Origin: Desulfopila aestuarii DSM 18488
Lineage (GTDB): Bacteria > Desulfobacterota > Desulfobulbia > Desulfobulbales > Desulfocapsaceae
Assembly (NCBI GenBank): GCA_945863875.1
Contig: CAMBBS010000002.1
Location: forward strand, 62,001 to 126,000
Direction: 5' to 3'
DNA length: 64,000 nucleotides
In this document: piece after piece, positions 18,868 to 46,393 of the stretch
Layout: each line of letters begins with the position of its first letter
How positions within the stretch are numbered: the stretch's first letter is position 1
The notes under the pieces: generated by a model
What the model saw: only the letters and a program-made list of their open reading frames with translations
Told to the model about the DNA's origin: nothing
The model's database searches: none
Made by a program: the position numbers and the translations under genes

Positions 18868-19166
18868 TATAAATCCTGCCCAAGGCAATATTGCCAAGCT
18901 AAAAGCGATTCAGAAGTGGCATAAGATATCTGTCTGAGAAATAAAATGGATATAAATAGCCATTTTTGACCATACATCCTTAATAAAAATAGTATCTAAC
19001 TGTCATGCAGCCAAAAACCCTAGGAGCCGATTCTTTAAATCCTTTTTCAGCAAAGCGCCCCAACGTGGTCCCTAGATGAAATATCTCATTTAAAGGTAAG
19101 AAAAGTCAACGAATAACTTTGCTTCTCGTTTCTCCCGCGCCCACGCTTCCTCCTCATTAATCTATC
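18868..19166. other. Gene-free stretch upstream of the WecA-PilZ gene
   Basis: No convincing gene or structured RNA is seen. It is AT-rich near 18940-19110 and may hold the promoter of the WecA-PilZ transcript. It marks the left edge of the accessory strip. Confidence 0.4.
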
Positions 19167-19211
19167 ATTCTGCGGACATAATAAACATTAACGTATCATG
19201 TCCCCAGATTA
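19167..19211. repeat. Short copy of the AATCTGGGGACA palindromic element
   Basis: ATTCTGCGGACATAATA and TATCATGTCCCCAGATT form imperfect arms around a 10-base centre. This is the same short form as the perfect copy at 40954-40997. Confidence 0.75.
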
Positions 19212-19309
19212 GGGCAAAGATATGTTTTCGGTCGTCCCGGCCCAGAACAGCACAAATCTTGTTGGCGCCGATATTGTCGATGTTATCGAGCATGATATTA
19301 CTGCCGCTG

Positions 19310-19555
19310 CGAACCGCCAAAGGCTTTGAGGTCAATTTTTACGCACGCCCTATCGGCGACCGGGAAAAATTAATCCTGGTCTGTGCCAGCATCGATCAGC
19401 CTGCAACTCTTGCCAGGGAAATCAAAGTGCTGCAAGATGCCAAAGCAGATTTTCCACAGGCCGAGATGCTCTTAATTACGCTGGTTCAACCCACGTTATT
19501 CGATATTCCTGAAGACGTAACCGTTTTTGCTGCCCGCGATTGGTTGCTTCATTAA
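19310..19555 (+). pseudogene. C-terminal remnant of a DUF4143-type AAA ATPase
   Basis: The frame reads RTAKGFEVNFYARP, then KLILVCASIDQPATLAREIK and AEMLLITLVQPT. This is the usual C-terminal pattern of the ATPase (AAA_14)/DUF4143 family, in which a restriction-endonuclease-like tail carries EVDF and QVC segments. The ATPase part is missing, with a repeat copy immediately upstream at 19167-19211. It is a decayed fragment and unlikely to be functional. Confidence 0.6.
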
Positions 19556-19575
19556 TCTGAGGGAACCAGGACACC

Positions 19576-19641
19576 AATCTGGGGACATAATAAACAACCG
19601 ATGTTTAATCTGCTAATCTGTGCTAATCTGGGGCCAGATAA
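19576..19641. repeat. Two direct partial copies of the AATCTGGGGACA element
   Basis: AATCTGGGGACATAATA at 19576-19592, then AATCTG repeated three times ending in TAATCTGGGGCCAGATAA at 19624-19641. It follows the ATPase remnant closely. Confidence 0.7.
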
Positions 19642-19680
19642 AAGATTAAGGCTCATCCGGATTAAGCGTATTTTACAACA

Positions 19681-19744
19681 CCGGCTCCCATGCTCCAGCG
19701 TGGGAGCCGGGGGAGCCTTTATGTCCCCTGAGTACTGCAGATTA
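19681..19744. repeat. REP-like hairpin followed by a variant element end
   Basis: CCGGCTCCCA and TGGGAGCCGG are perfect 10-bp arms at 19681-19710, and wobble pairs extend the stem to 14 bp. Beside it lies ATGTCCCCTGAGTACTGCAG (19721 onward) and then ATTA. This is a variant of the element end that also occurs at 42795-42819. Confidence 0.65.
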
Positions 19745-19774
19745 ACACTGTAGGAATAATGGAAAATCGCAAAA

Positions 19775-21355
19775 ATGACGATTTATAATCATATTTCACG
19801 AAATGTAACTCGTTTTCATGATTTTCCAACATTAGAGGAGGGAACCCTGCCGGCCGGATATTCCGCCCTGATCGGAGCACACAATCTGCAAGCACCTCTT
19901 CCAGACTTTCTCTGTGCAATAGGCACGAAGCATAAAAAACACGATCATGCACGCTGGCATATTTTTACACCGCGCCATAAACCGGCAGACACTCTTTATG
20001 GACATTTGACCTTTGCACTGAAGTATGAAGGCATTGATCTTGCTATTTTCAATGCATTGTTTGAAAAGATTGACGGCAAAGCAATCCAGCAAATCATCCT
20101 TTCGGAACCGACAGGAAGGTACAGCCGCAGGCTATGGTTTTTATGGGAATGGTTGCGCCAGGAACAGCTTGATATTGAGGATGCAACAACAGGAAATTTT
20201 GTTCCTCTTATCAAGAGTAAATTACAATAGGAAGGGAAATCGTCCCTCTCTCGACGACATCGGGTTCGCGACAATCGACCAGGGACGCGTAATTTTTGCC
20301 CCTTGATCCGAAAAACCGAAAGGCTTGAGCAATATCGAGGCAAGAAGCTCTCGGAAACAGCCGCAAAACATTTGGGCCAGATCCATTCCGATCTTCTTGG
20401 CCGAGCCGCGGCCTTTCTTTTGCTGAAAGACTCAAAAGCGTCTTACACTATCGAAGGGAAATCCCCACCACACAACCGAATCGAACGATGGGGAAGGATC
20501 ATAGGTGAAGCCGGACAGCGTCAGCTCAGCATTCAGGAGCTGGAATATTTGCAACGAATTGTTATTGCTGACAATCGCTTCATCAATCCGGGGCTCCGCC
20601 TGGAAGGCGGCTTTGTGGGACAGCACGATCGGACTACCGGCATGCCCATGCCCGATCACATTTCCGCCTGCCGTCAAGATCTAACTCCCCTGCTGTCCGG
20701 CCTTATAGAAACCTAGGCACTGCTTTGCAAGGATGATCTTGATGCTGTTTTATTGGCAACAATTCTTGCCTTTGGCTTCGTTTTTATCCACCCATTTGAA
20801 GATGGAAATGGCCGGATCCACCGTTATCTATTTCATCATGTTCTGGCGGAAAAAGGTTTCGTTCCAAAAGGGATAATATTTCCGGTATCCGCTGTCATTC
20901 TCGAGCGCATAGACGAATACCGCAAAACTCTGGAGCATTTCTCAAAGCCACGACTTGAATTAATAGCATGGCGTCCAACAGAGAAAAACAATATCGAGGT
21001 ATTAAACGATCCCATAGACCTGTACCGCTATTTTGACGCAACGAAACAAGCTGAATTTTTCTTTGCATGTGTTGAAGAAACAGTAACCAAAACCCTTCCG
21101 CATGAGGTTGAATTTTAACGGAAACACGATCTTCTCAACAAATTCATCAAAAATTACAATGACATGCATGAAAATCTCGCCGATCTGCTCATTCGTTTTC
21201 TGATGCAGAACAACGGCAAGCTTTCAAAACGGGCACAAGAAAAAGAGTTTGCAAAACTGACAGCAGCAGAAATTTCGGCGATTGAACAAAAATACGCCTT
21301 AACATGGGGACATAATAATACGCAGATTAATACAACCCATCCCTTAGCGGTTTAA
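19775..21355 (+). pseudogene. Fic-domain protein gene with three in-frame stop codons
   Basis: A single reading frame encodes a Fic family AMP-transferase of about 520 residues. It is broken by TAG at 20228-20230, TAG at 20714-20716 and TAA at 21116-21118, with no frameshift. The N-terminal domain resembles that of large Fic proteins. An inhibitory motif SYTIEG ([ST]xxxE[GN]) lies at about 20443, and the catalytic loop HPFEDGNGRIHR at about 20791 is perfect. The pieces between stops join smoothly (for example RRHRVRDNRPGTRNFCPLIRK bridges the first gap). The last codons, TWGHNNTQIN, come from a repeat copy. Absence of frameshifts suggests recent loss. Confidence 0.8.
21304..21330. repeat. Partial AATCTGGGGACA element at the end of the Fic gene
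   Basis: CATGGGGACATAATAATACG followed by CAGATTA. It encodes the terminal residues of the Fic reading frame. Confidence 0.55.
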
Positions 21356-21560
21356 CTTGCCCCCGGGATCAAACTTCATTAAAATATCATGCGTGAGATG
21401 CACGCTTTTTCAAAGCAGGTCAATGCGGCAATTATCATCCCGAGGTTTATCGCCATCGTGCTTAAAAAGCTCCAGACACTCGGCCACTATTCTGATTCAC
21501 TTTACGATGTCAGGCTGAGATAAGGTCAATGAGTCTTCATTCATTACCCAAGACAAGGAA

Positions 21561-21851
21561 ATGTCACTCAAAACCGTTCAGAAAAAGCGTCGCAGCGAGA
21601 TATTAAAAATTGCCGGCCAATACGGCGTCCATAACATCCGCATTTTCGGTTCGGTTGGCCAAGAAACAGAAAGGTCGGACAGCGATGGCGACTTCCTGGT
21701 CGATCTTGAGAAAGGGAGGAGCCTGCTTGATCTTGGCGGAATAGCCTTCGACCTCCAACGGCTGCTGGGGAGAAAGGTTGATATTGTTACGGAAAAAGGT
21801 CTTCACTGGTACATAAAGAAAACAATATTGGATGAGGCCGAAGTGCTTTGA
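21561..21851 (+). CDS. MNT-type minimal nucleotidyltransferase (antitoxin-like)
   Basis: About 96 aa, with the MntA signature GSVGQETERSDSDGDFLVDL (GSx9-10 followed by DxD) and the family's C-terminal KVDIVTEKGLHW. In intact HEPN-MNT systems this protein adds AMP groups to, and so silences, the HEPN ribonuclease encoded just downstream. Here its stop overlaps the start of a HEPN gene that is cut off after 23 codons, leaving the antitoxin an orphan. An extra residue before the second acidic position makes the active site slightly irregular compared with the 23.9-kb copy. Confidence 0.82.
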   Translation: MSLKTVQKKRRSEILKIAGQYGVHNIRIFGSVGQETERSDSDGDFLVDLEKGRSLLDLGGIAFDLQRLLGRKVDIVTEKGLHWYIKKTILDEAEVL

Positions 21852-21919
21852 AAAGCGATATCCTCTTTACAATACATATTCGTGAATGCATTGAACGAAT
21901 ACTTATGTCCCCAGATTAA
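21848..21919 (+). pseudogene. HEPN toxin gene truncated by the palindromic element
   Basis: TTG-initiated frame KSDILFTIHIRECIERI matches the first helix of HEPN (DUF86/HepT) proteins. It then runs into the repeat, whose bases encode LMSPD and the stop. The RxxxxH ribonuclease motif and most of the domain are missing. Its start overlaps the MNT stop, as in intact pairs. Confidence 0.65.
21903..21918. repeat. Half copy of the AATCTGGGGACA element shared by two gene ends
   Basis: TTATGTCCCCAGATTA. On the minus strand it encodes the last residues NLGT and the TAA of HipA. On the plus strand it ends the truncated HEPN frame. Confidence 0.75.
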
Positions 21920-23108
21920 TGCCCAGAATATGTTTATCAATGCATGCAAGCAAATCAGCAGGCAATGCAAAATGTCGGCAATTTTCCTTCCACAATGTAA
22001 TGGTTGCATCCACTGTTTCACGTACGACCTGCAACACCATATGCTGTGGTAATTGTGATTTTTGAGTCAATTTCCTGAAATGTTCCAGAGTAATGCTCTG
22101 CATATTTCTGGTGTTGTAGAGCTTCAACGCCAGCTTATCATTGGGAAGGTAAGGGATAGTCGAGAGCAGATCATACCCCAGCGACAAGGCCGCTGTTTTT
22201 CCGTCGCGGTAAATGAAAGACCAGTTCTTCAGGTGCATGTCACCATTTCCGATCAGGATGGTAAACGCCAATCGTCGAATGAAATCCTTTAACCCGCTCT
22301 CACCCGTCAGAGTCCAGATCATATACGCGATATTGCCGTAACTGACACCCTCATATTTTTTCTCAGGATAGACGTTGTAAACCTGGGCAAAATCTTCAAT
22401 ATGGATTCGCCTACCTTCCACCCTGTCAAAACGTCTCACAGCCAGCGCCGATTTACCGGCCAACACACCCATTTCCGGTAGACCATCAATCTCTCCCAGG
22501 GAAACCAGTCGATTTTCAGGTGTGGGAATGCCGATCATCGCGGCCAGCTGCATCATGGCACATTCATTTTCCGGCACATACATGTAGTTCTGCGCGGGCA
22601 GTTTGATAATCCAATCTCCACCCACCCCTTTTGCCGGGATCGTCATACCGCCACAACGTTCCGCGATAGCAGAGAATTTTAACTGAACCCCGGCAAGCGA
22701 GAAACGATAAGCGGGTTTGCTATCGCCTTGTTTAGCCTCCGATGGCTCCTGTGACAATCCACTGGTGCCTCCCATTGGCACAACGGTCACGGCACCCGGC
22801 AAATCTTCTCCCAAGAGTTCGATCAGCTTGAATTCCGCCGTCGGCTTGACATTTCCCAACTGCGCCAGGTAATTCCTCATATGACCTTCCGGCAGTAAGT
22901 TGGAAAAAAAAGCGGGTAGTTTCACTGAAGATGCCTTGGTTTCAGGGATCAATTCACCCGATGCACGGAAAAAAGATTGGCTGAGCACCTGCCTGTCGGG
23001 ATCGTGCAGATATTTTTCATTGAACGAAAAAAATGTTTTCCCACTCGGCAACATGGTTAATGTGCCAATGGCGGCATCCTGCAGAAAAACCTGCAACAAG
23101 TCGGTCAT
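21903..23108 (-). CDS. hipA: HipA-type serine/threonine kinase toxin
   Basis: About 401 aa HipA-family kinase, the toxin of a HipBA module; in E. coli HipA phosphorylates glutamyl-tRNA synthetase and induces persistence. It has the N-terminal HipA_N region (NLLPEGHMRNYLA), the nucleotide-loop-like SLAGVQLKFS, the catalytic loop IGNGDMHLKNWSF and the metal-binding GYDLL. All core kinase residues appear present. The gene overlaps hipB by 4 bp (ATGA). Its last four codons and stop (NLGT*) are supplied by an element copy, so the native C-terminus was replaced or extended, probably without loss of the kinase core. Confidence 0.9.
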   Translation of the reverse strand: MTDLLQVFLQDAAIGTLTMLPSGKTFFSFNEKYLHDPDRQVLSQSFFRASGELIPETKASSVKLPAFFSNLLPEGHMRNYLAQLGNVKPTAEFKLIELLGEDLPGAVTVVPMGGTSGLSQEPSEAKQGDSKPAYRFSLAGVQLKFSAIAERCGGMTIPAKGVGGDWIIKLPAQNYMYVPENECAMMQLAAMIGIPTPENRLVSLGEIDGLPEMGVLAGKSALAVRRFDRVEGRRIHIEDFAQVYNVYPEKKYEGVSYGNIAYMIWTLTGESGLKDFIRRLAFTILIGNGDMHLKNWSFIYRDGKTAALSLGYDLLSTIPYLPNDKLALKLYNTRNMQSITLEHFRKLTQKSQLPQHMVLQVVRETVDATITLWKENCRHFALPADLLACIDKHILGINLGT

Positions 23109-23383
23109 ACCCCATCCTCCTCGTCAAGCTGCCAGCGCCGCTCATGCCCTTTTTCCCCCTGCAGCATCGCCCTGACCTGTGACAACAGTTGTCTGGGGAC
23201 AAGAACCAGCTCCCGATCCAACACCCTGGCCATATCAGACACCGTGGAAAGCCGAGGATCCGTCCCCCCTTGTTCGATCTTCGAAACATGACTCTGCGGC
23301 AGACCGAGTTTTTCCCCCACCTCTGATTGCTTTAGCCCCATCGCCTGCCGCGCTGCTTTTAATTGCTCAATAATGATGTTCAT
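23105..23383 (-). CDS. hipB: HipB-type HTH antitoxin
   Basis: About 92 aa Xre-family regulator. The helix-turn-helix is KQSEVGEKLGLPQSHVSKIE at about residues 19-38, followed by a dimerisation stretch (LSTVSDMARVLDRELVLVPR) and a charged C-terminal tail ending EEDGV that could contact HipA. It should repress the hipBA promoter and neutralise HipA. It is the first gene of the pair, and translation of hipA is coupled through an ATGA overlap. An element copy lies about 50 bp upstream of its start, next to the promoter. Confidence 0.9.
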   Translation of the reverse strand: MNIIIEQLKAARQAMGLKQSEVGEKLGLPQSHVSKIEQGGTDPRLSTVSDMARVLDRELVLVPRQLLSQVRAMLQGEKGHERRWQLDEEDGV

Positions 23384-23435
23384 AAATATATGCTAAACTA
23401 TATCCATGCTCACGTAAATATGTTTTAACGTATAA

Positions 23436-23511
23436 TTAATCTGGGGACATAATAAAAATTAACGCATTATGCCCCCAATCCAATAACCGACGTGCATTGT
23501 CGATTTTATTA
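23436..23511. repeat. Main part of a full palindromic element interrupted by a group II intron remnant
   Basis: Read on the minus strand, this segment gives TAATAAAATCGACAATGCAC ... TTATTATGTCCCCAGATTAA. It joins across the intron to TTAATCTGGGGACA at 23765-23778. The joined sequence aligns along its length with the uninterrupted copy at 43283-43372. Confidence 0.8.
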
Positions 23512-23764
23512 GTCGAGTCGCCCGGGGGAATCTCATCCCCAGGCTCTCCCAGTTCCGGACGTGAGTCTCTCGACTCATCCGGTTCCCCATGCCCCATACC
23601 TGACCAAGTCTTGCCGGGCCTTTTCCTTAACGCTCACCACTATGGCTCTTTACCACAGCAGCTCACAAGGTGGTTTGGTGCCTGCTCCTGCAAGCCCACT
23701 CCGAGGGACCTACCCTCATCTTTCGTGTAATTACGAGCAAAATTTTTTTGCTCTCGTGGCACAC
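23512..23764 (-). mobile_element. Group II intron remnant without reverse transcriptase (copy 1)
   Basis: On the minus strand it begins GTGTGCCACGAGAG, which fits the GUGYG 5' splice consensus, and ends GGGCGACTCGAC. Near the 3' end (23551-23586) a domain V-like hairpin is visible, with GAGA tetraloop, stem TGAGTC/GACTCA and a two-base CG bulge; a domain VI-like stem follows. At 253 nt it is far too short to be a complete ribozyme. About 170 bases present in copy 2 are missing here, and there is no maturase. The outer domain V stem has mismatches next to the AGC triad position, so it is probably inactive. Confidence 0.65.
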
Positions 23765-23865
23765 TGTCCCCAGATTACGCTCCCCTTTACCCAGCCGGCT
23801 TTGCCGCAGAGGATCCCCTCGTTCATGAGATAATGAACAAAGGACGTTTGATTTATTGATCTGTG

Positions 23866-23883
23866 TTAATCTGGGGACATTAA
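23866..23883. repeat. Partial element directly upstream of the MNT/HEPN pair
   Basis: TTAATCTGGGGACATTAA lies 22 bp before the MNT start and is preceded by GATCTGTG, the same flank as the copy at 40293. Confidence 0.6.
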
Positions 23884-23905
23884 CGATCGCGACAGAGGAA
23901 AATCC

Positions 23906-24190
23906 ATGGACAAACTGATTGAAGACCACCGTGAAGAGATAAGGCGGCTTGCCCTCTTACGCGACGCCCGCAGAGTACGGGTGTTCGGTTCGCGTGCTCG
24001 CGGTGACGCCGGTCCTGACAGTGACGTTGATATCCTGATTGATCTTGAAAAAGGCAGATCAGCCCTTGCGTTGGGAAGACTCTTGATGGACCTTCAAGAT
24101 CTCCTCGGTAAAAAAGTTGATGTGGTGACACCGGCTGCCTTGCATCCGAAATTACGCAACAGGATTCTTCGCCAGGCTGTTGATCTATGA
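23906..24190 (+). CDS. mntA: MntA-type nucleotidyltransferase antitoxin
   Basis: About 94 aa. The catalytic signature GSRARGDAGPDSDVDILIDL is canonical (GS followed by DxD). The C-terminal part contains KKVDVVTPAALHPKLRNRIL, as in MntA antitoxins that AMPylate their HEPN partner near the ribonuclease site. An ATGA overlap with the downstream HEPN gene gives a coupled two-gene cassette on the plus strand, sitting between two group II intron remnants. Compared with the orphan MNT at 21.6 kb, the active site here is regular. Confidence 0.9.
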   Translation: MDKLIEDHREEIRRLALLRDARRVRVFGSRARGDAGPDSDVDILIDLEKGRSALALGRLLMDLQDLLGKKVDVVTPAALHPKLRNRILRQAVDL

Positions 24191-24528
24191 CCCTCTCCGA
24201 AGGTGGCCAGATTTATGTGGAGCACACGCTCGAGTGCATCGAACGCGTTGAGCGATTCGCATATCAGGACCGCAATACGTTCATGCTATCGGACCTCGTT
24301 CAGGATGCGGTGGTGCGTAATCTGCAGACTTTGTCCGAATCCAGCCGGCGGTTATCCGATGAGGTTAAGAATACCCGGTCCCATATCGATTGGCGGGCGA
24401 TCGCCGGTTTCCGTAACGTTTTGGTCCATGACTGCATGGGGCTTGATCTCGAAACAATATGGCTGGTAATCGAAAACGACCTTCCGGCCTTAAAAGACGC
24501 ACTCAATGCAATGCAAGCCGACCGTTAA
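24187..24528 (+). CDS. hepT: HepT-type HEPN ribonuclease toxin
   Basis: About 113 aa, all helical, DUF86/HepT family. The RX4H ribonuclease motif is present as RNVLVHDCMG at about residues 79-88, and the family's IAGFRNVLVH context is complete. HepT toxins cleave RNA and are kept inactive by oligo-AMPylation by the MntA partner, whose gene precedes it with a 4-bp overlap. The cassette looks intact and probably functional. The gene ends at the point where the truncated group II intron remnant starts. Confidence 0.9.
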   Translation: MTLSEGGQIYVEHTLECIERVERFAYQDRNTFMLSDLVQDAVVRNLQTLSESSRRLSDEVKNTRSHIDWRAIAGFRNVLVHDCMGLDLETIWLVIENDLPALKDALNAMQADR

Positions 24529-25106
24529 TGTCGAGTAGACCGGTTTCTTCCATGAAAACAGCAATTACAAACAAGTCTTTTAATGCGGTGCAGTTTCGTT
24601 GCCACCGGTTCCCCGCTGCTGTAAACGGCCGATGTTTCCTCACTCCGCGCTCCCATGTGTAGCCTCCTTTCCTCCCAGCGGAATTACCCTCCTTCTTTGG
24701 TACTACGAAGCTATCCGACTCCCTGTACCTCATATGCCTTCCTCCCTCTTCAGTTGTCCGGCATACTCTCTGTTCTTCGAGAGAAACGCAGGGCCTCCCG
24801 GGTTGCCGTGCAATCACAATGCCAGACATGCCATGGTCTCTGACCCCGAGGAAGCAACCATCACCTTGCCTTTAACGGTGTTTCCTGTGTTGACTTCCAC
24901 TATAAAAAAGGTGTCATCCTTCCCAACTCGACATGTACGAGGCTCAAACGCTTTTATCCTTATGGCTTACGGCCTATCTGCTCGCAGTCCTACGCTTAAA
25001 CCTGGGTGTTACCACACAGCCGCCAAGGACTCGCTACCCGGTTGCTGGCCTGCCTTCCGGGACGGGATTCCCGCCCGCTGGGCTACACGACCTTACCCAA
25101 CCGCAC
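24529..25106 (-). mobile_element. 5' part of a second type of group II intron (truncated)
   Basis: On the minus strand the sequence starts GTGCGGTTGGGTAAGG, an exact GUGYG 5' end, and continues through about 370 bases of structured, GC-rich domain I-like RNA. The segment GTAGCCCAGCGGGCGGGAAT is typical of these introns in my recollection. It then enters the start of an intron-encoded protein. The intron is truncated soon afterwards, so no domain V or VI is present. The 5' exon is the palindromic element, with the junction after AATCTGGGGGACATAATAAAA. Confidence 0.65.
24560..24733 (-). pseudogene. N-terminal fragment of a group II intron reverse transcriptase/maturase
   Basis: From the ATG at 24733 the frame reads MRYRESDSFVVPKKEGNSAG, the characteristic leader of group II intron-encoded proteins. 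GGAGGAAGG lies upstream. Similarity fades after about 55 residues and no reverse-transcriptase motif (YADD) follows. The left boundary is approximate. Confidence 0.5.
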
Positions 25107-25139
25107 TTTTATTATGTCCCCCAGATTAACACAGATTAA
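25107..25139. repeat. Element end serving as 5' exon of the truncated intron
   Basis: Minus strand: TTAATCTGTGTTAATCTGGG followed by GGACATAATAAAA at the intron junction. It lies 4 bp from the stop of the glycosyltransferase gene at 25144. Confidence 0.7.
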
Positions 25140-39010: not shown

Positions 39011-39053
39011 TACTGGGACATACTACGAATTAACGCTTTATCAATTAGTATTA
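39011..39053. repeat. 3' portion of a short palindromic element interrupted by intron copy 2
   Basis: On the minus strand, TAATACTAATTGATAAAGCG ... GTAGTATGTCCCAG. It joins to TAATCTGGGGACA at 39480-39492 across the intron. Together they make the short form of the element, related to 40954-40997. Confidence 0.65.
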
Positions 39054-39479
39054 GTCGAGTCGCCCTGGGGAATCTCACCCCCAGGCTCTCACAGTTCCGG
39101 ACGTGAGTCTCTCGACTCATCCGGCTCCCCATGTCCCCTTCTCAGTAAGGTTTGCATTACTCTGAGGTTCCTCCCATCTCTGGTTGACCAATAAGTAATT
39201 TCAGACATGTTACCCCTTCGCTCTACCTCCACTCCGCATCGGTACTCTCATCCTTGTGGGGTCTCCACTCGGATTTCTTCCTTAGCATCGGAACGACAGG
39301 TTTCCACGTTCCATACCTGACCCAGTCTTGCCGGGCCTTTTCCCTAACGCTCACCACCATGGTTCTTTACCACAGCAGCTCAAGGTGGTTTGGTGCCTGC
39401 TCCTGCAAGCCGACTCCGAGGGACCTACCCTCATCTTTCGTGTAGTTACGAACAAAACTTTCTTGCTCTCGTGGCACAC
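39054..39479 (-). mobile_element. Group II intron remnant without reverse transcriptase (copy 2)
   Basis: 426 nt. On the minus strand it begins GTGTGCCACGAGAGC and ends GGGCGACTCGAC, identical at both ends to copy 1. It keeps an extra internal part (GGAAACCTGTCGTTCCGATG, GATGCGGAGTGGAGG) that I recognise as domain I-type sequence of bacterial group II introns. The domain V-like hairpin is at 39093-39128. No reverse transcriptase is present. A few ORFs across it are accidental. It sits at the same internal position of an element as copy 1. Confidence 0.68.
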
Positions 39480-39506
39480 TGTCCCCAGATTATCCCCCTC
39501 GATAAC

Positions 39507-39713
39507 CTAAAGCTTGAACTCACCCTGCATGGGTATGGGCTCTCTTGAAGGATGGTTGGCCATTTTGTGAAAGAACTGAATAAAGTCGGTAAATTGGTTT
39601 GTTGCCTCGATTGTTCCAGGATTCTCCGCGAAAATCTTTTTCTCCAATGATTTGAATTCATCAGTTCGGGAGAAAGCAAGCAATTCTTTTTTGGCCTGAT
39701 CAGAAAGTTTCAT
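39507..39713 (-). CDS. Small protein, partner of a nucleotidyltransferase
   Basis: 68 aa, charged and helical (SDQAKKELLAFSRTDEFKSL, IEATNQFTDFIQFFHKMANH). No family is recognised. Its start overlaps the end of the nucleotidyltransferase gene by 4 bp (ATGA), which indicates a two-gene cassette. The size and pairing fit a toxin-antitoxin or similar module. Related two-gene arrangements with DUF6036-like or AbiEii-like nucleotidyltransferases are known, but which partner is toxic is not clear here. Confidence 0.7.
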   Translation of the reverse strand: MKLSDQAKKELLAFSRTDEFKSLEKKIFAENPGTIEATNQFTDFIQFFHKMANHPSREPIPMQGEFKL

Positions 39714-40258
39714 GAAAAGTCCTTTTTCAGGGAGGCCAGCAAGGTTTGTTTATCAAAGAGTAAAAAATACTCGTCGAGAAGTTTCCAGTCAATAAGCCTT
39801 TTCCTTTGCAACTGATACTCAAGCAACAGCCGCATATCATATATGTCGGCAGCCTCCCTTTGCGTATCATTGGCAATGGCTTGAACCTTGAGGCCGATTA
39901 TATCCTCTGGAGAAAGCACGGGGATCATATATTTATTGAACACCCTGAACCTTTCCACTCTCGACAGCATTTCTTTTGAGATCGTCTTCGAAGCATGAAG
40001 AATGTCAATACTTCCAAATAGCTTTAATCCTGATATATATTGCGATAAATGCGGGGACCGGTGAACACATGAATACATGCAGCCAGTGAGAATTTTATCT
40101 GCTTTGTCGAGGTCTTCGACAAGGAGCAGGATGTCAAGATCCATGGTGGCTCGAAGAATGCCCATAATCCCCAGCGCAAATCCCCCAATCAATCCATAAT
40201 GCAGCTCCTCTTTCTCGAAAGAAGACATGACTTTTTCAAAAACAAGTTGAAAATCCAT
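39710..40258 (-). CDS. AbiEii/MNT-like nucleotidyltransferase domain protein
   Basis: 182 aa. The nucleotidyltransferase fold is shown by LIGGFALGIMGILRATMDLD followed by ILLL: a GG-x-RxTxDLD pattern typical of AbiEii/DUF1814-like and related proteins. A later PVLSPEDIIGLKVQAIANDT with QREAADIYDM matches the helix that carries a K and D in the same group. It is encoded with a 68-residue partner. A cellular role in cleavage-free RNA or protein nucleotidylation is known for related antitoxins and toxins; the role here is inferred. An element copy lies just upstream at 40299. Confidence 0.78.
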   Translation of the reverse strand: MDFQLVFEKVMSSFEKEELHYGLIGGFALGIMGILRATMDLDILLLVEDLDKADKILTGCMYSCVHRSPHLSQYISGLKLFGSIDILHASKTISKEMLSRVERFRVFNKYMIPVLSPEDIIGLKVQAIANDTQREAADIYDMRLLLEYQLQRKRLIDWKLLDEYFLLFDKQTLLASLKKDFS

Positions 40259-40298
40259 GAGTGGACACCTTTATGGACCTGGATTGTTTACTGATCTG

Positions 40299-40326
40299 TG
40301 GGTTAATCTGGGGACAGATTAACCCA
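40299..40326. repeat. Element-derived perfect hairpin at the 3' end of the YdcF-like gene
   Basis: TGGGTTAATCTG and CAGATTAACCCA are perfect 12-bp arms around GGGA. The TAA stop of the gene at 40319 lies inside the right arm. It could act as a transcription or mRNA-end structure. Confidence 0.7.
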
Positions 40327-40942
40327 GCAAAAAAGCCTCCTTAAAAACCCTCTGGACCTTTTTCAAAATTGGCGCATCGAGCAGTAATTGGCCGGAGACG
40401 TACTGTCCGGTCATCTCGATGATACTGCCCCAGAGCTTAATCGCCTCATTGGGGTATTGCACCAGGTTTTTGCTAAATCCCTGTTCCTCTTTTACGGAAA
40501 AGCCCTGGATGCTGACGTCCTGGCCGGCAAGCCAGAGCGAGGCGCGCATAAGAAACATCGCCCGTGGGAGATGGTAGCTTGACGTGACCACGATGGCCGA
40601 CCGCAGCTGGTTGTCCTGGATGGTCTGGATCGTTTGGTAAACATCCTCGAAGGTCGACCTGCTCTCGCCGCCGGGCAGTGTACTGATGTTTTCCGGTGCA
40701 CCGTTCTTTATCAGGAGTTCTTGAAGGTGTGGGGCAGTCGTACTGATCACCATAAAGCGCGGCGCCAGATCATCCTTTATGAGGTCAATGCCTGTGATTA
40801 TACGCCGGCTGCCACCGGGAAAGACGACAACAAGGTCTGCCGGTTCGAGCGTCACAGTACTTTTGGCAAAATAGACGGCGGTGCTTGTCTGTATCACTGC
40901 CACAAGACAGAGGAGACAGACGATGAGTATGATGGCTTTCAT
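40319..40942 (-). CDS. YdcF/SanA-like DUF218 membrane-anchored protein
   Basis: About 207 aa. The N-terminal signal anchor IILIVCLLCLVAVIQTSTA is followed by a DUF218 domain: ADLVVVFPGGSRRIITGIDL, then GAPENISTLPGGESRSTFED and AIVVTSSYHLPRAMFLMRA. These match the ElyC/SanA/YdcF fold, associated with envelope integrity or lipid-carrier metabolism. Its stop codon lies in an element-derived hairpin and another perfect element hairpin lies 12 bp upstream of its start. It shares the strand with the Sat/CysC-like gene. Confidence 0.85.
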   Translation of the reverse strand: MKAIILIVCLLCLVAVIQTSTAVYFAKSTVTLEPADLVVVFPGGSRRIITGIDLIKDDLAPRFMVISTTAPHLQELLIKNGAPENISTLPGGESRSTFEDVYQTIQTIQDNQLRSAIVVTSSYHLPRAMFLMRASLWLAGQDVSIQGFSVKEEQGFSKNLVQYPNEAIKLWGSIIEMTGQYVSGQLLLDAPILKKVQRVFKEAFLLG

Positions 40943-40953
40943 TTGTTATTTTT

Positions 40954-40997
40954 AATCTGGGGACATAATACGTTCATTTTTATTATGTCCCCAGATT
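40954..40997. repeat. Short perfect palindromic element between two genes
   Basis: AATCTGGGGACATAATA and TATTATGTCCCCAGATT are perfect 17-bp arms with a 10-base loop. It fills the 60-bp gap between the Sat/CysC-like stop and the YdcF-like start. Confidence 0.85.
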
Positions 40998-41002
40998 ACA
41001 GA

Positions 41003-42700
41003 TTAGACCACATACCCCTGCTCTTCCAGATACAGCAATATTTCCTGCACCGCTTCCATGGGCGTCATGGTGGTTGTATCGATCGTCAGCTCGGGGTTGG
41101 AGGGGGGAATATAGGGATCGGTGATGCCGGTGACGCCTTTTACCTTGCCGGCCCGCGCCTTGGCATACAAGCCCTTGCGGTCGCGCTGTTCACAGACCTC
41201 GAGGGGAGTGGCCACGTGCACCTCGATATAGCCGCCGTAGCGGGAGATCAGTTCCCGGTTGGCCTGCCTCGATTCCTCGTAGGGGGCGATTGGCGCACAG
41301 AGGGCGATGCCGCCGTTTTTGGTGATCTCGCTGGCGACAAAACCGATGCGGGTAATATTCAGATTGCGGTGTTCCTGGGAAAAGGTCAGCTCGGAGGAGA
41401 GGTTTCTGCGGACGATATCGCCGTCGAGCAGGGTCACCGGACGATCGCACATCTCCATGAATTTGACCAGCAGGACCTTGGCAATGGTCGATTTCCCCGA
41501 GCCAGAGAACCCGGTCATAAAGATCGTGAAGCCCTGTTTGGACCGGGGCGGGAAAGAACACTGCAGCTGATCGACCACCTCGGGGTAGGAGAACCAGGTC
41601 GGCACATCCTCACCGGACACCAGCCTGCGGCGCAATTCTCGCGATGAAATGGTCGCCACCTCCGCTTCCTCGACCTGTTCGAGCACCACGTACTTTTTCA
41701 ATTCCGTGTGATAGCCCATTTCCCGCTGGGGCACCATGGCGATACCGGTTTCTTTTACATAGGCCGCGACCATCTCCTGGGCGGCGCCGCGTCGGTAAAA
41801 ACGCCCTTCGCCGTCGCTGGCGGCCTGGGGATCGGCATGGTCAGCGGCGACCATAAAATGGCTGCAGCCAAAATTTTTGCGGATAATCGCCTGCCACAGG
41901 GCCTCTTTCGGTCCGGCCTTCCGGCTGGCAAAGGGGGTCAGGCCAAGCTTGATCATGTTGGGCGGAAATTTTTGCGTGAAGGCCTGATAGCAGCGAATCT
42001 GGGTATAATAATCGAGATTGCCCGGATGGCTCAGGTCGGCCACCGGCTGCAGAAAAATGGCTGCTCCCGCTTCGCGTGCCGCGGCAATAACCATCTCCCG
42101 ATGGGCACAGTGCAGATACTCGTCGGTATGAAAGCCGAGCACCTTGCGCCAGCCGTTCATGGTGAAGGAGCGCACCGTCTCGGACGGACTGAGGCGCAGA
42201 TGCTGAAAGTCATAGTGGATCGGCAGGCTGACACCTTCCAGCCGGCCGGAGATATACCAGTCACCAACCCGGTCGTAGAGCTGCCGCACCCCCGGATGGA
42301 GCGCCGGATCGTCGGTACCATAGACCGACAGGGCCTCCTTTTTCTTGTCCGGCTGCCAGATTTCTTCGACGGTCAGAAGGGCCAGGAGAAATCCTTCCTC
42401 ATCATTGAGGGCAACTCGATTGCCGACCGTCAGTCCGGCAGCAATCTTTTCAGGCACATCGAGACAGATGGGCATCGGCCAGACGGTACCATCGGCCAGC
42501 CGCATATTCTCGACCACCGAATCGTAATCCTCCCGGCAGAGATAGCCGTTCAACGGATACAGCCCACGGTTCAGCAAGAGTTCGAGATCACACAACTGCC
42601 GCGATGACAAATCTATCAACTTACAGTCCAGTGCCTCGGCGCGCAGCGCTTCAACCCGCCGGAAATGGACAAGCAGGCTCTCTGAATAATTTTGATCCAC
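41003..42700 (-). CDS. Sulfate adenylyltransferase-like / APS kinase fusion with altered sulfurylase motifs
   Basis: 565 aa. Residues 1 to about 385 are an ATP-sulfurylase-type domain, about 390-565 an APS kinase with intact P-loop GFSGSGKSTIAKVLL, followed by LLDGDIVRRNLSSEL and GVTGITDPYIPPSNPEL. This would make PAPS for sulfation. In the sulfurylase domain the usual QTRNPxHRAHE is GFHTDEYLHCAHRE: only the HxxH pair survives and the sulfate-binding Q and R are gone. The GRDHAG motif is VAADHADP. The domain may therefore be inactive or use another substrate, while the kinase part appears functional. Element copies flank the gene on both sides. The substrate of the product is not indicated by the neighbours. 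Confidence 0.88.
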   Translation of the reverse strand: MDQNYSESLLVHFRRVEALRAEALDCKLIDLSSRQLCDLELLLNRGLYPLNGYLCREDYDSVVENMRLADGTVWPMPICLDVPEKIAAGLTVGNRVALNDEEGFLLALLTVEEIWQPDKKKEALSVYGTDDPALHPGVRQLYDRVGDWYISGRLEGVSLPIHYDFQHLRLSPSETVRSFTMNGWRKVLGFHTDEYLHCAHREMVIAAAREAGAAIFLQPVADLSHPGNLDYYTQIRCYQAFTQKFPPNMIKLGLTPFASRKAGPKEALWQAIIRKNFGCSHFMVAADHADPQAASDGEGRFYRRGAAQEMVAAYVKETGIAMVPQREMGYHTELKKYVVLEQVEEAEVATISSRELRRRLVSGEDVPTWFSYPEVVDQLQCSFPPRSKQGFTIFMTGFSGSGKSTIAKVLLVKFMEMCDRPVTLLDGDIVRRNLSSELTFSQEHRNLNITRIGFVASEITKNGGIALCAPIAPYEESRQANRELISRYGGYIEVHVATPLEVCEQRDRKGLYAKARAGKVKGVTGITDPYIPPSNPELTIDTTTMTPMEAVQEILLYLEEQGYVV

Positions 42701-42711
42701 TTTTTTACCTT

Positions 42712-42819
42712 TTTAATCTGTAATCTGGGGACAGAATAAAATTATCGACGCACACCAGTTATTATTCTGAAGACAGAATACGATAAATTTTATCATGTCC
42801 CCTGAATAATGCAGATTAA
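42712..42819. repeat. Full palindromic element between flavodoxin and Sat/CysC-like genes
   Basis: About 105 bp. Left end TAATCTGGGGACAGAATAAA, centre CGACGCACACCAGTT, right end TATCATGTCCCCTGAATAA then TGCAGATTAA. The right end is a variant also seen at 19721. It occupies almost the whole intergenic gap. Confidence 0.8.
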
Positions 42820-43251
42820 CTACAAATCAGCAGCCACTTCCTTGCCATAATCATGGGCCATTTTGATACCGCCACCCATTGACGCGGCTTTCAGCATCAG
42901 GGGGCCGCCGACCATATCCATGCCGAAGACGTTTTTCATGGTCTGGAAGATTCGATCAGCTGCTTCACCACTCCAGCCGTAGGACCCGAAAGCGCCACCT
43001 TTTTTGCCCTGCAGCCCGGCCTTTTCCGCAAGGAACAAAAAGGATTTCATCCTGTTGACCATCTCGCCATGATAGGTGGATGAGCCGAAGATGTAGCCGT
43101 CGTAACCGGCAATATCGGCTTCCGTCTTCATATCATTCACATCCTTTAGGACTACATCGGCCATCGCAAAACGCAGGCCTTCGGCAATCAGCTCGGCTAT
43201 TTTCTGGGTTTCTCCGGTCCTGCTGGCATAGACTATCAGGATTTTTGGCAT
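42820..43251 (-). CDS. Flavodoxin
   Basis: 143 aa, the length of short-chain flavodoxins. The FMN phosphate loop is VYASRTGETQKIAELIAEGL, the second loop is IFGSSTYHGEMV, and the third is GGAFGSYGWSGEAADRIFQ. It should carry electrons as a low-potential shuttle in the cytoplasm. It sits beside a glutaredoxin gene on the same strand. The stop codon lies directly at the edge of an element copy. Confidence 0.92.
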   Translation of the reverse strand: MPKILIVYASRTGETQKIAELIAEGLRFAMADVVLKDVNDMKTEADIAGYDGYIFGSSTYHGEMVNRMKSFLFLAEKAGLQGKKGGAFGSYGWSGEAADRIFQTMKNVFGMDMVGGPLMLKAASMGGGIKMAHDYGKEVAADL

Positions 43252-43282
43252 ATTTTTCTCCTTTTTCTGATTTACAATAATC

Positions 43283-43372
43283 TTAATCTGGGGACATAAT
43301 AAAATTGACGATGCACACCGGTTGTTAATCTGAGGCCAGATTACGCTATTTTTTGTTATGCCCCCAGATTAA
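43283..43372. repeat. Full 90-bp palindromic element between glutaredoxin and flavodoxin genes
   Basis: The reference copy. Left end TTAATCTGGGGACATAATAA, centre GACGATGCACACCGGTT, right end GTTATGCCCCCAGATTAA. Its right end encodes the last residues and the stop of the glutaredoxin gene. Confidence 0.85.
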
Positions 43373-43610
43373 ATGCCACATTATTCAGGTAAGCAATAAT
43401 ATCATCACTTTCATACATGGACACATCGCCGTCTATCAGGAAGGGAACCATTGCCTTGCCGCCGACCTGCAGCACTACTTCCCGTCCCGGTGTTCCTGGT
43501 GACGCATCGATTACGGTAAAGCCTTTGCCCTCCTTCAGGCCGGTTTTTTCCGCTGCGGTGAGTACTTTTTTACAAAACGGGCAGCTGTCTCTCATGTAGA
43601 GTTTTATCAC
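43356..43610 (-). CDS. Glutaredoxin
   Basis: 84 aa with the redox motif CPFC at residues 10-13 in RDSCPFCKKVLTAAEKTGL, the cis-proline region GGKAMVPFLIDG and the C-terminal YESDDIIAYLNNV. It reduces disulfides or glutathionylated proteins, fitting the glutathione synthetase gene 1.8 kb away on the same strand. The last residues, FNLGA and the stop, are encoded by an element copy (TTTAATCTGGGGGCATAA), so the native C-terminus was altered after the last helix. Confidence 0.93.
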   Translation of the reverse strand: MIKLYMRDSCPFCKKVLTAAEKTGLKEGKGFTVIDASPGTPGREVVLQVGGKAMVPFLIDGDVSMYESDDIIAYLNNVAFNLGA

Positions 43611-43631
43611 TTTATTACCTTTTTGGTTTGT

Positions 43632-43720
43632 TTAATCTGGGGACAGAGTAAAATTAACGATGCACGCCGGTTATTAATCTGACGACAGAATACGTTTATT
43701 ATTATCATGTCCCCAGATTG
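43632..43720. repeat. Full palindromic element between ABC permease and glutaredoxin genes
   Basis: Left end TTAATCTGGGGACAGAGTAA, centre AACGATGCACGCCGGTT, right end ATTATCATGTCCCCAGATTG. It fills the 115-bp gap. Confidence 0.85.
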
Positions 43721-43725
43721 ACCCA

Positions 43726-44496
43726 TCAACACCGCACACCGGTTCCTTTTTTCAGAAGATAGAGGGTTATCAAAAAAAGTACCACGGAAAAGAGCAGCAG
43801 CATTCCCAGGCCGGCCCAGACATTGATGTCGGTGATGCCCAGAAAGCCGTAACGGAAGCCGCCTATCATATAGACGACGGGGTTGGCTTTGGACAGCGTC
43901 CGCCAGAAATCGGGGAGCAGGGAGATTGAGTAAAATACCCCGCCGAGGTAGGTCAGCGGGGTGATGACAAATGTTGGTATGACCGAGATGTCATCAAATT
44001 TCTTGGCAAAAATGCCATTGATCAGGCCGGCGAGCGAGAAAACAAAAGACGTCAGCAGGGCAAAAAGGATCGTAAAGGGCACATTAAACAGCGGCAGCCT
44101 GATAAACAGCAGGCTGACCAGCGACACCAGCATGCCGACACAGAGTCCGCGGGTCATGCCGCCTGAGATATAGCCGAGAACCATCACCCAGTTCGGCGTC
44201 GGGCTGACGAGCAATTCTTCAATGTTCCGCTGGAATTTGGTGCTGAAAAAGCTCGAAACGGTATTGGCGTAGGAATTGGTGATGATCGACATCATGATCA
44301 ATCCCGGGGCGATGAAGGCCATATAATCATAGCCGTCGATATCGCCCAGTTGCGAGCCGATGAAACTGCCGAATATGATGAAATACAGGCTGATGGTGAT
44401 CACCGGCGGCACCAGCGTCTGCAGCCAGATGCGGAAGATCCGTATCATCTCCTTGCGGGCGATGCTGGTAAAAGAGATCCAGTTGCTGCGCATCAT
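43726..44496 (-). CDS. ABC-2 type transporter permease (YadH-like)
   Basis: 256 aa with six transmembrane helices and the ABC-2 layout: EMIRIFRIWLQTLVPPVITI at the N-terminus, FFSTKFQRNIEELLVSPTPN in the first cytoplasmic loop and FVITPLTYLGGVFYSISLLP near the fourth to fifth helix. It resembles E. coli YadH. Its start overlaps the stop of the ATPase gene by 4 bp. Substrate unknown. The 3' end is followed closely by an element copy. Confidence 0.92.
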   Translation of the reverse strand: MMRSNWISFTSIARKEMIRIFRIWLQTLVPPVITISLYFIIFGSFIGSQLGDIDGYDYMAFIAPGLIMMSIITNSYANTVSSFFSTKFQRNIEELLVSPTPNWVMVLGYISGGMTRGLCVGMLVSLVSLLFIRLPLFNVPFTILFALLTSFVFSLAGLINGIFAKKFDDISVIPTFVITPLTYLGGVFYSISLLPDFWRTLSKANPVVYMIGGFRYGFLGITDINVWAGLGMLLLFSVVLFLITLYLLKKGTGVRC

Positions 44497-45398
44497 TCGA
44501 CCATTTCCATGAAAAGTTCTTCGAGGCGGTTGGCCTTGTTGCGCATGCTGTCGACGACAATACCCTGCTGGTCGAGATGCGCGAGAATTCGGTTCATTGA
44601 TTGCGATTTATTTTTCGTCACCACCAGGGTTCCATCGTCCATGAAGGAGAATTCGGTATTTTCCAAGGGCATGACTGCCGACACCGGATTTTTCGTATCG
44701 AAAAAGAAGGTTTCCTTATTCAATTTACGCAGCAGTTCGCGCTTACTGGTGTTCTCGACGATTTCCCCCCTGGTGATAATGGCAATCTGATTACACAGCT
44801 GCTCGGCCTCTTCGAGATAGTGGGTGGTCAAAATGATCGTCCGGCCCTGGCGGTTCAGCTCGACAAGAAAATCCCACATGCCCCGGCGCATTTCCACATC
44901 GACGCCGGCGGTGGGTTCATCAAGAATGAGCAGTTTCGGTTCATGGACCAGGCCGCGGGCAATCATCAGGCGTCGTTTCATGCCGCCGGAGAGTTGCTGG
45001 GCGGGGACGTGCCGTTTCTCCCACAGGCCGAGTTTTTTCAGGTACTTTTCGGAACGGACCAGCGCCTCCCGGCGGGGAATGCCATAATAACCGGCCTGCT
45101 GGGTGACGATGTCCTGTACTTTTTCAAATATCGAAAAATTCGCTTCCTGCGGGACAACGCCGATCAACCGTTTTGCCGCCGGAAAATCGTCATCGATGTC
45201 GATGCCGAAAACGCGCACCTTGCCACCGGTCTTGGTGACAAGCGAGGTAATAATGCCGATTGTCGTGGTCTTTCCGGCACCGTTGGGACCGAGCAGGCCG
45301 AAGAAGTCCCCTTCCTGGACATCGAAGGTCACCCCGCTGAGTGCCTGGAAGCCACCCTGGTATTTTTTCTGCAGATTTTGAATTGATAGGGCTAACAT
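44493..45398 (-). CDS. ABC transporter ATP-binding protein (YadG-like)
   Basis: 301 aa. Walker A is LLGPNGAGKTTTIG, the signature LSGGMKRRLMIARG, Walker B KLLILDEPTAGVDVEMR and the H-loop ILTTHYLEEAEQL. The C-terminal 70 residues hold the extra domain of ABC-2 exporters. It powers the permease encoded downstream. It is preceded by the gshB gene with only an element fragment in the 11-bp gap, so the gene order gshB, ATPase, permease may be one transcript. Confidence 0.94.
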   Translation of the reverse strand: MLALSIQNLQKKYQGGFQALSGVTFDVQEGDFFGLLGPNGAGKTTTIGIITSLVTKTGGKVRVFGIDIDDDFPAAKRLIGVVPQEANFSIFEKVQDIVTQQAGYYGIPRREALVRSEKYLKKLGLWEKRHVPAQQLSGGMKRRLMIARGLVHEPKLLILDEPTAGVDVEMRRGMWDFLVELNRQGRTIILTTHYLEEAEQLCNQIAIITRGEIVENTSKRELLRKLNKETFFFDTKNPVSAVMPLENTEFSFMDDGTLVVTKNKSQSMNRILAHLDQQGIVVDSMRNKANRLEELFMEMVE

Positions 45399-45409
45399 TT
45401 TCTTTTCAT

Positions 45410-45438
45410 TTAATCATGGGACATAATAAAATAGTCGA
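45410..45438. repeat. Partial element overlapping the 3' end of gshB
   Basis: TAATCATGGGACATAATAAA then ATAGTCGAC, related to the left end of the 43283 copy with ATGG for TGGG. Read on the minus strand it encodes the final residues DYFIMSHD and the stop of gshB. Confidence 0.7.
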
Positions 45439-46288
45439 CGATCTCTTCAGCCAGATTTCTTCCTTCCAGTGCCGATATCTGCATGATACCCGTCGGACAG
45501 GTGATGTTAATTTCCGTGAGCTGTTCATCGATGAGATCGAGTCCGGTAAGATGGATGCCATGTTCGAGCAGCCAGGGGCCGACGTCGGCGACGATTTCTT
45601 GCTCTTTGGCCGTCAGTTCGGTCCGCAGCGCATCGCTGCTGGCGAAATTAGCGTGGTAGCCCTGCCTCGGTCGGCGCATGGCGGCACCAAGAAACCTGTC
45701 GCCAACCATTATCACCCGCTTATCCCCTTTATAAACATTCTCCAAGAATTTCTGCACCATAACCGGCTGCTTGCCTCCCCCGGTATACGCGGCGACCGTT
45801 GCCCGGTCGGACGGTTCTATCTTTTGCACCGCTTTGCCCTGAAAGCTGTCCAGGGATTTGATGACACTTGTCCCCTGGGCACCGAGAAAATCCGCGATCA
45901 CCTCAGGGTCTGAACTGACCAGGGTCGGCGGCATATGGTGGATAAAAGGCAGGGCTATCAACTTTTCGTTGAAATCGCGCAGCGCCGACGGACTGTTGAC
46001 GACCCGCGTCTTAGCCAGGGACAGCAGCTGGGTGGCATAATGAAAGGCCATGTCGTAGGGCGGCTCTTTGCGCATGAAAATGAGTGCGTAATCATCAAGG
46101 GCGCGTACCCGTTTTCGGCCGAAAGAATCGGTGGCTATTACCGCGGCGTGGGTCTGAAAAAACAGCCGCTCGATCGTCGCCGTATCAACACTGATGCCGG
46201 ACTTTCGGGCCTGGTCGATAATCGCCAGGGATGTATCCGTCTTTGCAACCAGGCCCTCGATGGGGTCGAGCACTACTAACCATTCCAC
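45410..46288 (-). CDS. gshB: Glutathione synthetase
   Basis: 292 aa ATP-grasp enzyme joining gamma-glutamylcysteine and glycine. The GshB N-terminal domain has LDDYALIFMRKEPPYDMAFH, which contains the conserved RKxPPxDxxF motif; NSPSALRDFNEKLIAL precedes the ATP-grasp domain with VIKSLDSFQGKAVQKI, then RRPRQGYHAN and the metal-binding EINITCPTGIMQI near the end. It is slightly shorter than E. coli GshB (316 aa). The final residues come from an element copy and probably replace a few native ones. Confidence 0.93.
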   Translation of the reverse strand: MEWLVVLDPIEGLVAKTDTSLAIIDQARKSGISVDTATIERLFFQTHAAVIATDSFGRKRVRALDDYALIFMRKEPPYDMAFHYATQLLSLAKTRVVNSPSALRDFNEKLIALPFIHHMPPTLVSSDPEVIADFLGAQGTSVIKSLDSFQGKAVQKIEPSDRATVAAYTGGGKQPVMVQKFLENVYKGDKRVIMVGDRFLGAAMRRPRQGYHANFASSDALRTELTAKEQEIVADVGPWLLEHGIHLTGLDLIDEQLTEINITCPTGIMQISALEGRNLAEEIVDYFIMSHD

Positions 46289-46370
46289 TCTGCTTCCTCC
46301 TTATATTTCGGACAATTGGTGAGTTGGTATACTAATCACCATAGGCCTTTGCTGCAAATTTCATTTATTA

Positions 46371-46388
46371 ATTTAATCTGTCCCCAGA
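46371..46388. repeat. Partial element, rightmost copy
   Basis: TTTAATCTGTCCCCAGAA; two half-ends fused head to head. No further copy is seen to the right in the window. Confidence 0.55.
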
Positions 46389-46393
46389 ACAAA

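Follow-up and report, generated by a model that had tools for sequence, protein, structure and literature searches.

Remnants of two unrelated group II introns lie in the arms of one dispersed palindromic repeat in Desulfopila aestuarii

Group II introns are thought to persist by using sites where insertion does little harm. Among the closest described systems, RmInt2, a class D intron of Sinorhizobium meliloti, is found in the inverted repeats of ISRm17, where its site is present on both strands, and RmInt1 (IIB3, class D) homes into the multicopy element ISRm2011-2 and has an IEP without an endonuclease domain (both as given in the accessible text of PMC5894124). Insertion of class C (IIC) introns is tied to stem-loop DNA at terminators and attC sites, according to the accessible parts of two further papers (PMC4424553, PMC3898094). 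In P. putida KT2440, a published table places two of nine group II intron copies in REPs (PMC1525189, accessible part). Here we describe a locus of Desulfopila aestuarii that can be set beside each of them. It resembles KT2440 in that group II copies are tied to repetitive extragenic palindromes, RmInt1 in the combination of a multicopy mobile element as target with an IEP that, in relatives, gave no endonuclease domain match, and class C introns in that stem-loop DNA accompanies insertion. However, the link in KT2440 concerns a minority of copies in one genome and comes without EBS/IBS analysis in the accessible portion of that paper, whereas two families of introns are involved here, and for one of these the enrichment extends across many assemblies. 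As far as the accessible text on RmInt1 and RmInt2 goes, the former uses an insertion-sequence target of one family and the latter the ends of one insertion sequence, while here several families of short dispersed repeats are targeted, in many species. Finally, class C introns have, in the accessible descriptions, a hairpin in place of IBS2, but in the lineage of RF02005, to which one of our introns belongs, we see EBS2/IBS2 pairing, and many sites have no hairpin.

The window, that is, the whole stretch of DNA that we analysed, comprises 64,000 nucleotides of one D. aestuarii contig and contains many copies of a palindromic element. As a reference we use an uninterrupted long copy at 43283..43372 (+), which folds with a z of -5.6. 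Two other long copies are also empty, at 43632..43719 (+, z -3.7) and 42720..42807 (+, z -5.9), as is a short, near-perfect palindrome at 40952..40998 (+, z -10.7). A further short copy at 19165..19213 (+) has a degenerate left arm and folds weakly (z -2.1, equalled by 10 of 200 shuffles), and a single arm is recognisable by its match at 21903..21916 (-). Allowing one mismatch at most, we count 21 occurrences of the core TCTGGGGACA in the window, where 4.2 would be expected. The exact core AATCTGGGGACA is present 21 times genome-wide, 14 of them in the contig stretch of the window, while the reversed control gave 0. We detected AATCTGGGGACA in 34 of 144 genomes, the window's own included, and since the window genome is the only one with more than three copies, we regard the repeat as a local expansion.

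The elements are dense at 19165-25130 and 39012-46393, flanking a cluster at ~25.1-37.8 kb that is itself without core matches and that we take to consist of polysaccharide/glycosyltransferase genes. Several toxin-antitoxin-like gene pairs, presumably one HipBA-like and two nucleotidyltransferase/HEPN-like, are found among the elements at 19200-24500. Two reading frames end within an element: the single arm mentioned above supplies the 3' end, with the last codons (...GINLGT) and the stop, of ORF 21903-23108 (-), which we assume to be HipA-like, and another arm encodes the last codons (...NVAFNLGA) and the stop of ORF 43356-43610 (-), presumably glutaredoxin-like.

Two element copies are interrupted by remnants of a group II intron without RT, here named intron 1. 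Copy A (253 nt, 23512..23764, -) is preceded by the left arm of the element as its 5' exon (GTAATCTGGGGACA, 23765..23778, -) and followed by the remaining element, including the right arm, as its 3' exon (23436..23511, -). Copy B (426 nt, 39054..39479, -) has the left arm of a shorter element as its 5' exon (39480..39493, -) and the remainder of that element as its 3' exon (39012..39053, -). A first-pass annotation of this DNA had already called both inserts group II intron remnants, and Rfam agrees: in a cmscan search, RF01999 (D1-D4) scores 98.6 bits at 23598-23717 in A and 118.3 bits at 39315-39432 in B, both above gathering, and RF00029, the model that the annotation had singled out, places domain V/VI at the 3' terminus of each copy, with 44.4 bits at 39054-39129 in B, above gathering, and 38.7 bits (E 1.4e-5) at 23512-23587 in A, slightly below the 40-bit cut-off. 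Its version of copy A's left exon, TTAATCTGGGGACA, has to be corrected, as the sequence gives GCGTAATCTGGGGACA (GCGTAATC...). The two inserts start with GTGTGCCACGAGAGC, end with GGGCGACTCGAC and share ~94% identity. Neither has the EBS segment, the EBS-loop motif of their relatives being absent from the window, and copy A additionally lacks most of D4.

Deletion of insert A restores the element, as had been proposed. The joined flanks form a 90-nt palindrome and match 43283-43372 at 73 of 89 positions (82%) with a score of 124, while 500 shuffles reached 55 at most. Insert B, equally as proposed, has identical ends at the same point of a shorter element copy, with exact junctions; its joined flanks score 49, whereas shuffles reached 44 at most, and the match is confined to the left part. 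Hairpins are formed at both joined sites, with z of -6.9 for A and -4.7 for B. Copies A and B occupy the same base of two different element copies, and their outer flanks are unrelated. A single insertion into one element, with element and intron then copied jointly, would account for the similarity of the two introns and for the (G/A)TAATCTGGGGACA that precedes both. We nevertheless judge such passive carriage unlikely, because the 3'-side element parts differ in length and sequence (TAATAAAATCGAC... vs TAATACTAATTG...), because the outer 5' flanks of A and B are no more alike than shuffled ones, 245 of 1000 shuffles scoring as high, and because another intron of the window, unrelated to this one, is placed at a different base of the arm.

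That other intron, which was not in the first-pass annotation, is a 577-nt group II intron remnant without RT at 24530..25106 (-), with an RF02005 match of 113.5 bits, above gathering. This intron 2 has no relationship to intron 1. Its 5' exon is the element arm GTTAATCTGGGGGACATAATAAAA (25107..25130, -), and the junction, read within the arm, consists of TTAATCTGGGGGACATAATAAAA followed by GTGCGG, the arm having one extra G compared with other copies. On the other side, with the 3' end of the intron placed by profile, the exon begins ATTAACG, a few further bases of the element after which the copy diverges. RF00029 gave no match at E<=0.5 over 24530-25106; in the loci of six relatives it scored 40.9-42.4 bits in three (L204, L223, L238) and found nothing at gathering in the other three (L244, L183, L194).

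All three introns of the window, belonging to two unrelated families, are therefore found in arms of one repeat, in registers 8 bases apart. If introns simply insert between genes, and the region happens to be rich in elements, such an arrangement could be fortuitous, and the share of genome-wide exact cores that falls in the window's contig stretch gives this idea some ground. However, the arms cover roughly 1-2% of the window, from which we infer a chance of the order of 1e-6 that all three 5' junctions would fall within them. Further, intron 2 sits at the base predicted by EBS pairing, its motif recurs at intron 2 junctions in other species, and both the covariation and the counts of filled and empty sites described below oppose coincidence, which we regard as extremely improbable.

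Site selection by base pairing would account for the two registers. In the mechanism that we propose, the arm TTAATCTGGGGACATAATAAAA would carry sequences complementary to the exon-binding sites (EBS) of the intron RNA. For intron 1, IBS1 would be GGGGACA and IBS2 apparently TTAATCT, with entry directly after GGGGACA; for intron 2, IBS2 would be GGGGACA(T) and IBS1 would be AATAAAA, with entry eight bases further in. We analysed complementarity with a covariation scan in which each intron window is compared with each exon window over 40 exon positions and scored beyond column composition, using 39 introns with distinct exons for intron 2 and 22 members for intron 1. In the intron 2 scan the maximum was EBS1 with exon positions -7..-1, and the next separate peak was EBS2 with -15..-9. 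Under permutation of the exons, which leaves sequence relatedness in place, EBS1 had a z of 9.6 and EBS2 of 6.0, and 0 of 20000 permutations reached either. EBS1 of intron 1 against -7..-1 had a z of 5.1, again with 0 of 20000, for its 22 kin and with relatedness likewise remaining.

Individual loci point the same way. EBS2 reads TTGTC at GGGACA sites (L177, L204, L227) and TTGAC or GAGAC at GTCA sites (L228, L238, L239), so it switches with the A/T of the motif, a direct compensatory change. Core EBS2 pairing is seen in eight of 12 aligned introns with GGG[A/T]CA exons. The expected pairing is absent from the remaining four, three of which are probably shortened copies (L183 and L194, where RF02005 has no match, and L200, of 144 nt), and in the fourth, L163, the motif is shifted by one base. 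The GGG that precedes the EBS2-paired core is conserved, and pairing does not account for it. Since EBS1 (TTTTATA vs AATAAAA) and EBS2 (ATGTC vs GACAT) of the window intron 2 complement the arm, with Watson-Crick pairs at 6 of 7 EBS1 and 5 of 8 EBS2 positions, this intron fits the element itself. As for intron 1, the only copy in the genome that retains the EBS segment is C23, in which TGTTTTT faces GGGGACA, four of the seven pairs being G-T wobbles and the other three Watson-Crick. AGATTAA in its EBS2 loop, read by eye, is the exact complement of TTAATCT, a sequence match that is suggestive of TTAATCT as the IBS2 of intron 1. Recognition through EBS1 and EBS2, of the IIA/IIB type, is found for the intron 2 lineage, and for intron 1 through EBS1, its EBS2 having been read by eye.

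The intron 2 lineage has kin in 29 of the 144 genomes, the window's own included. Of 20 intron 2 5' ends that we read, five (L154, L155, L163, L168, L173) follow GGGG[A/T]CA arms, exact or with one mismatch, and two others follow AGGGACG. We also performed an exon-blind scan, in which the 23-nt 5' end of the intron was compared with the genome collection; it yielded 80 loci, mostly from Desulfobacterota MAGs, 79 of them with enough upstream sequence. At positions -15..-9, exact GGGGACA was present in 32 of the 79 loci (background 7.5e-5 per position) and exact GGGG[A/T]CA in 34, from 19 of 46 assemblies (background 1.5e-4 per upstream position); removal of the single genome that gives 18 loci leaves 20 of 61. 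With up to one mismatch the count rose to 43 of 79, against 0.0025. The other 45 exons are without exact GGGG[A/T]CA, and some of these introns (e.g. L176, L252) directly follow ...TTGGAAATATGTTGA. The eight bases after the motif vary by species (GATTTATT, GGCCAATT, GGCAAATA, CGATACTT, TAATACCA and others), and in the proposed mechanism EBS1 and EBS2 of this lineage would co-vary with the local repeat family.

Filled and empty sites can be compared within one MAG (G154, JAHIRD01), where GGGGACAGGCMAATW occurs 32 times, against 0 for the reversed control and 0 in six other genomes. We read 30 of these copies, of which 10 are filled at the identical base and the other 20 empty. Elsewhere the site most often used is GGGGACAGATTTATT, with 0 to 4 exact copies per genome across 20 genomes; 13 of them have it, and in five of these the lone copy is the filled site. 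Dispersal in many copies was observed only in the window genome and in G154. The earlier idea that the repeats would offer many landing sites is thus a better fit for the intron 2 lineage, given G154 and the exon-blind scan, than for that of intron 1.

Given that the element is a palindrome, its secondary structure could itself be the signal. We folded eleven joined empty sites as DNA, of ~50-90 nt each, nine of them intron 2 sites. Five beat all of their shuffles (both intron 1 sites, L238, L244 and, more weakly, L239; z -3.7 to -9.7), and six, namely L155, L204, L200, L223, L252 and the window intron 2 site, were no better than shuffles. An RNP that recognises the palindrome in its cruciform or hairpin form, like class C introns behind terminators or in attC stems, would be compatible with the five, with the four of five empty window elements that also fold better than all shuffles, and with the terminator-like character, with T-runs, of two joined sites (L244, L238). 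We find this explanation improbable. The insertion splits the 5' arm and does not follow the stem, six of the eleven sites behave as shuffles (although stretches of ~50 nt would miss a distant second arm), and the EBS2/IBS2 pairing said to be replaced by a hairpin in IIC is present in the RF02005 lineage. It is on this lineage that a class C mode, with a target hairpin replacing IBS2, was assessed and not seen; the window sites of intron 1 both form hairpins. Because those six joined sites are without a hairpin beyond shuffles, it seems that at least intron 2 needs the arm and not the hairpin, and in the mechanism based on EBS pairing the hairpin itself would apparently be dispensable. The first-pass annotation had the introns homing to the palindrome as such, a reading which gives way to EBS/IBS pairing as the explanation of the site.

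The intron 1 lineage behaves differently with respect to the element. Intron 1 is found at five places in the genome, and the only two copies found in the window element are A and B; the other three (C18, C23, C55) are outside it, with 5' exons ending in TTCTGGAATCA, ACGGGAAATA and TTGGGAACA, respectively, C18 being a weak 5' fragment. Its kin occur in 38 of the 144 genomes, the window's own included, and we aligned 35 5' ends, L089 being without flank and L112 unalignable at its 5' end. None of the nine relatives that have the 5'-end type of the window is in the element. Five of these nine (L077, L078, L080, L082, L083) read AATC(T/A)GGAA..A or near it, and other 5'-end types use sites of their own. 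Since sister copies follow similar strings elsewhere, the element arm is one instance of a ~14-nt string tracked by this lineage. The claim that the lineage used the element as a homing site at least twice consequently holds in part: there are two insertions at the same point of different copies, with empty copies elsewhere, but the element is not the lineage's general homing site. Copies in unrelated flanks, which the earlier note had named as evidence against its own reading, make up three of the five places in the genome and all nine same-type relatives.

Other members of this lineage have targets of their own kind. One 5'-end type (L104, L105, L106, L096; genomes G018, G009, G006) is inserted in apparent YADD codons of other RT genes, that is, as nested introns. 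In L077, L082 and L005 the ~50-70 nt located 5' of intron 1 look alike and have stop codons in almost every frame, a pattern suggestive of one more dispersed repeat into which the intron inserts. We also considered that the 5' exons of the relatives might be one coding gene, and rejected it for the stops in nearly all upstream frames.

GGGG[A/T]CA is also associated with Y1 (RAYT-like) transposases. We hand-picked 20 Y1_Tnp loci from 52 listed, in ten genomes, excluding the strongest IS200-like ones. The motif was present at 15 of them, up to 700 bp past the match, with 24 matches against 3 for the reversed motif, and on both strands at seven. Its density was 0.74 per kb, vs 0.36 per kb at the 80 intron 2 loci, where the junction motifs are included. 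The protein of L273 matches Y1_Tnp with 45.6 bits and the NCBI REP-associated transposase model NF047646 with 71.9 bits, below the cut-off of 80. Among 23 matches listed, exact GGGGACAGATTTATT adjoins a RAYT-like gene in L273 and a short RAYT-like frame without a Pfam match in L271, and in L335 an intron 2 5' fragment follows AAAGGGGGTCAGAGTAAAA, just upstream of a RAYT-like gene. RAYT genes beside the intron 2 insertions themselves are scarce, a profile that we made from 12 segments detecting them at 3 of 80 loci. As the motif flanks Y1 genes, the repeats targeted by intron 2 are at least partly end-repeats of RAYT-like genes.

For the window element we found no cognate Y1 transposase: the genome has 25 Y1_Tnp places, and none has AATCTGGGGACA within 1.5 kb on each side. 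Nor did a simple, insensitive motif detect a neighbouring Y1 gene at 20 loci with AATCTGGGGACA elements in relatives; three such loci (L277, L287, L296) contain clear palindromes. Two GGGGACAC motifs adjoin one of the Y1 places, a fragment at C81 (L136). Because no cognate transposase was found, the common GGGGACA arm is the one feature that places the window element in the RAYT/REP kind. As a separate observation, unrelated ORFs at L273 826-1227 and L271 109-1521, which we take to be CrcB-like and fumarase-like, start M(K/-)GMGNKSVPF or MGNKSVPF, encoded by a GGGGACAGATTTATTTCCCAT repeat, and this repeat may donate start codons.

No intact RT was found in the window genome, the sole RT match being sub-threshold and outside the window (G000 C1:14524-14673, L033). 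It lies ~0.3 kb from a Y1 transposase gene at C1:14995-15351 (L133). Being without RT, all three window introns are dead, and since the genome has no intact RT, no donor is seen. TIGR04416 matches one IEP of the relatives for each intron family, with 357 and 449 bits, and a Pfam scan of the IEP gave no endonuclease domain match.

Taking these results together, we think it probable that two unrelated group II lineages retrotransposed into a dispersed repeat through an arm matching their EBS, and that repeats of this kind are a frequent target of the intron 2 lineage in Desulfobacterota. The repeat is palindromic, so that both strands of every full copy present the target. Reverse splicing and reverse transcription would be the route, and the order of events and the preference at the level of the lineage are presumed in the same way. 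For the window copies, the junctions, by analogy with group II biology as described in the accessible parts of earlier work (PMC4424553, PMC3898094), would be consistent with retrohoming or ectopic retrotransposition. A more far-reaching proposal, to which we would give even chances, is that the RF02005 lineage has specialised on the end-repeats of REP-associated transposases. EBS2 would be fixed on the G-A/T-C-A core and EBS1 would drift with each local family, and the intron would hop between repeat families and species, having renewable and mostly intergenic homing sites. If true, bacterial group II introns would have a fourth class of target, beside gene/IS homing sites, terminators and attC.

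An association of group II introns with REPs is already known, as are inverted repeats of insertion sequences as targets. As far as the literature that we searched goes, a lineage that has used RAYT-type repeats again and again across many species, with its EBS tracking them, is new, and so is the presence of two unrelated introns at neighbouring bases of one repeat. That search, which had most subscription papers and bioRxiv preprints outside its scope and is therefore weak evidence of absence, returned no group II lineage targeting RAYT/REP repeats beyond the KT2440 table of 2006. A lineage that uses REP ends would connect two common kinds of small bacterial mobile element, and targeting of this sort would explain how a genome can hold many intron copies without gene breakage. 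The natural series of matched EBS/IBS pairs would, further, make target switching in this family directly testable.
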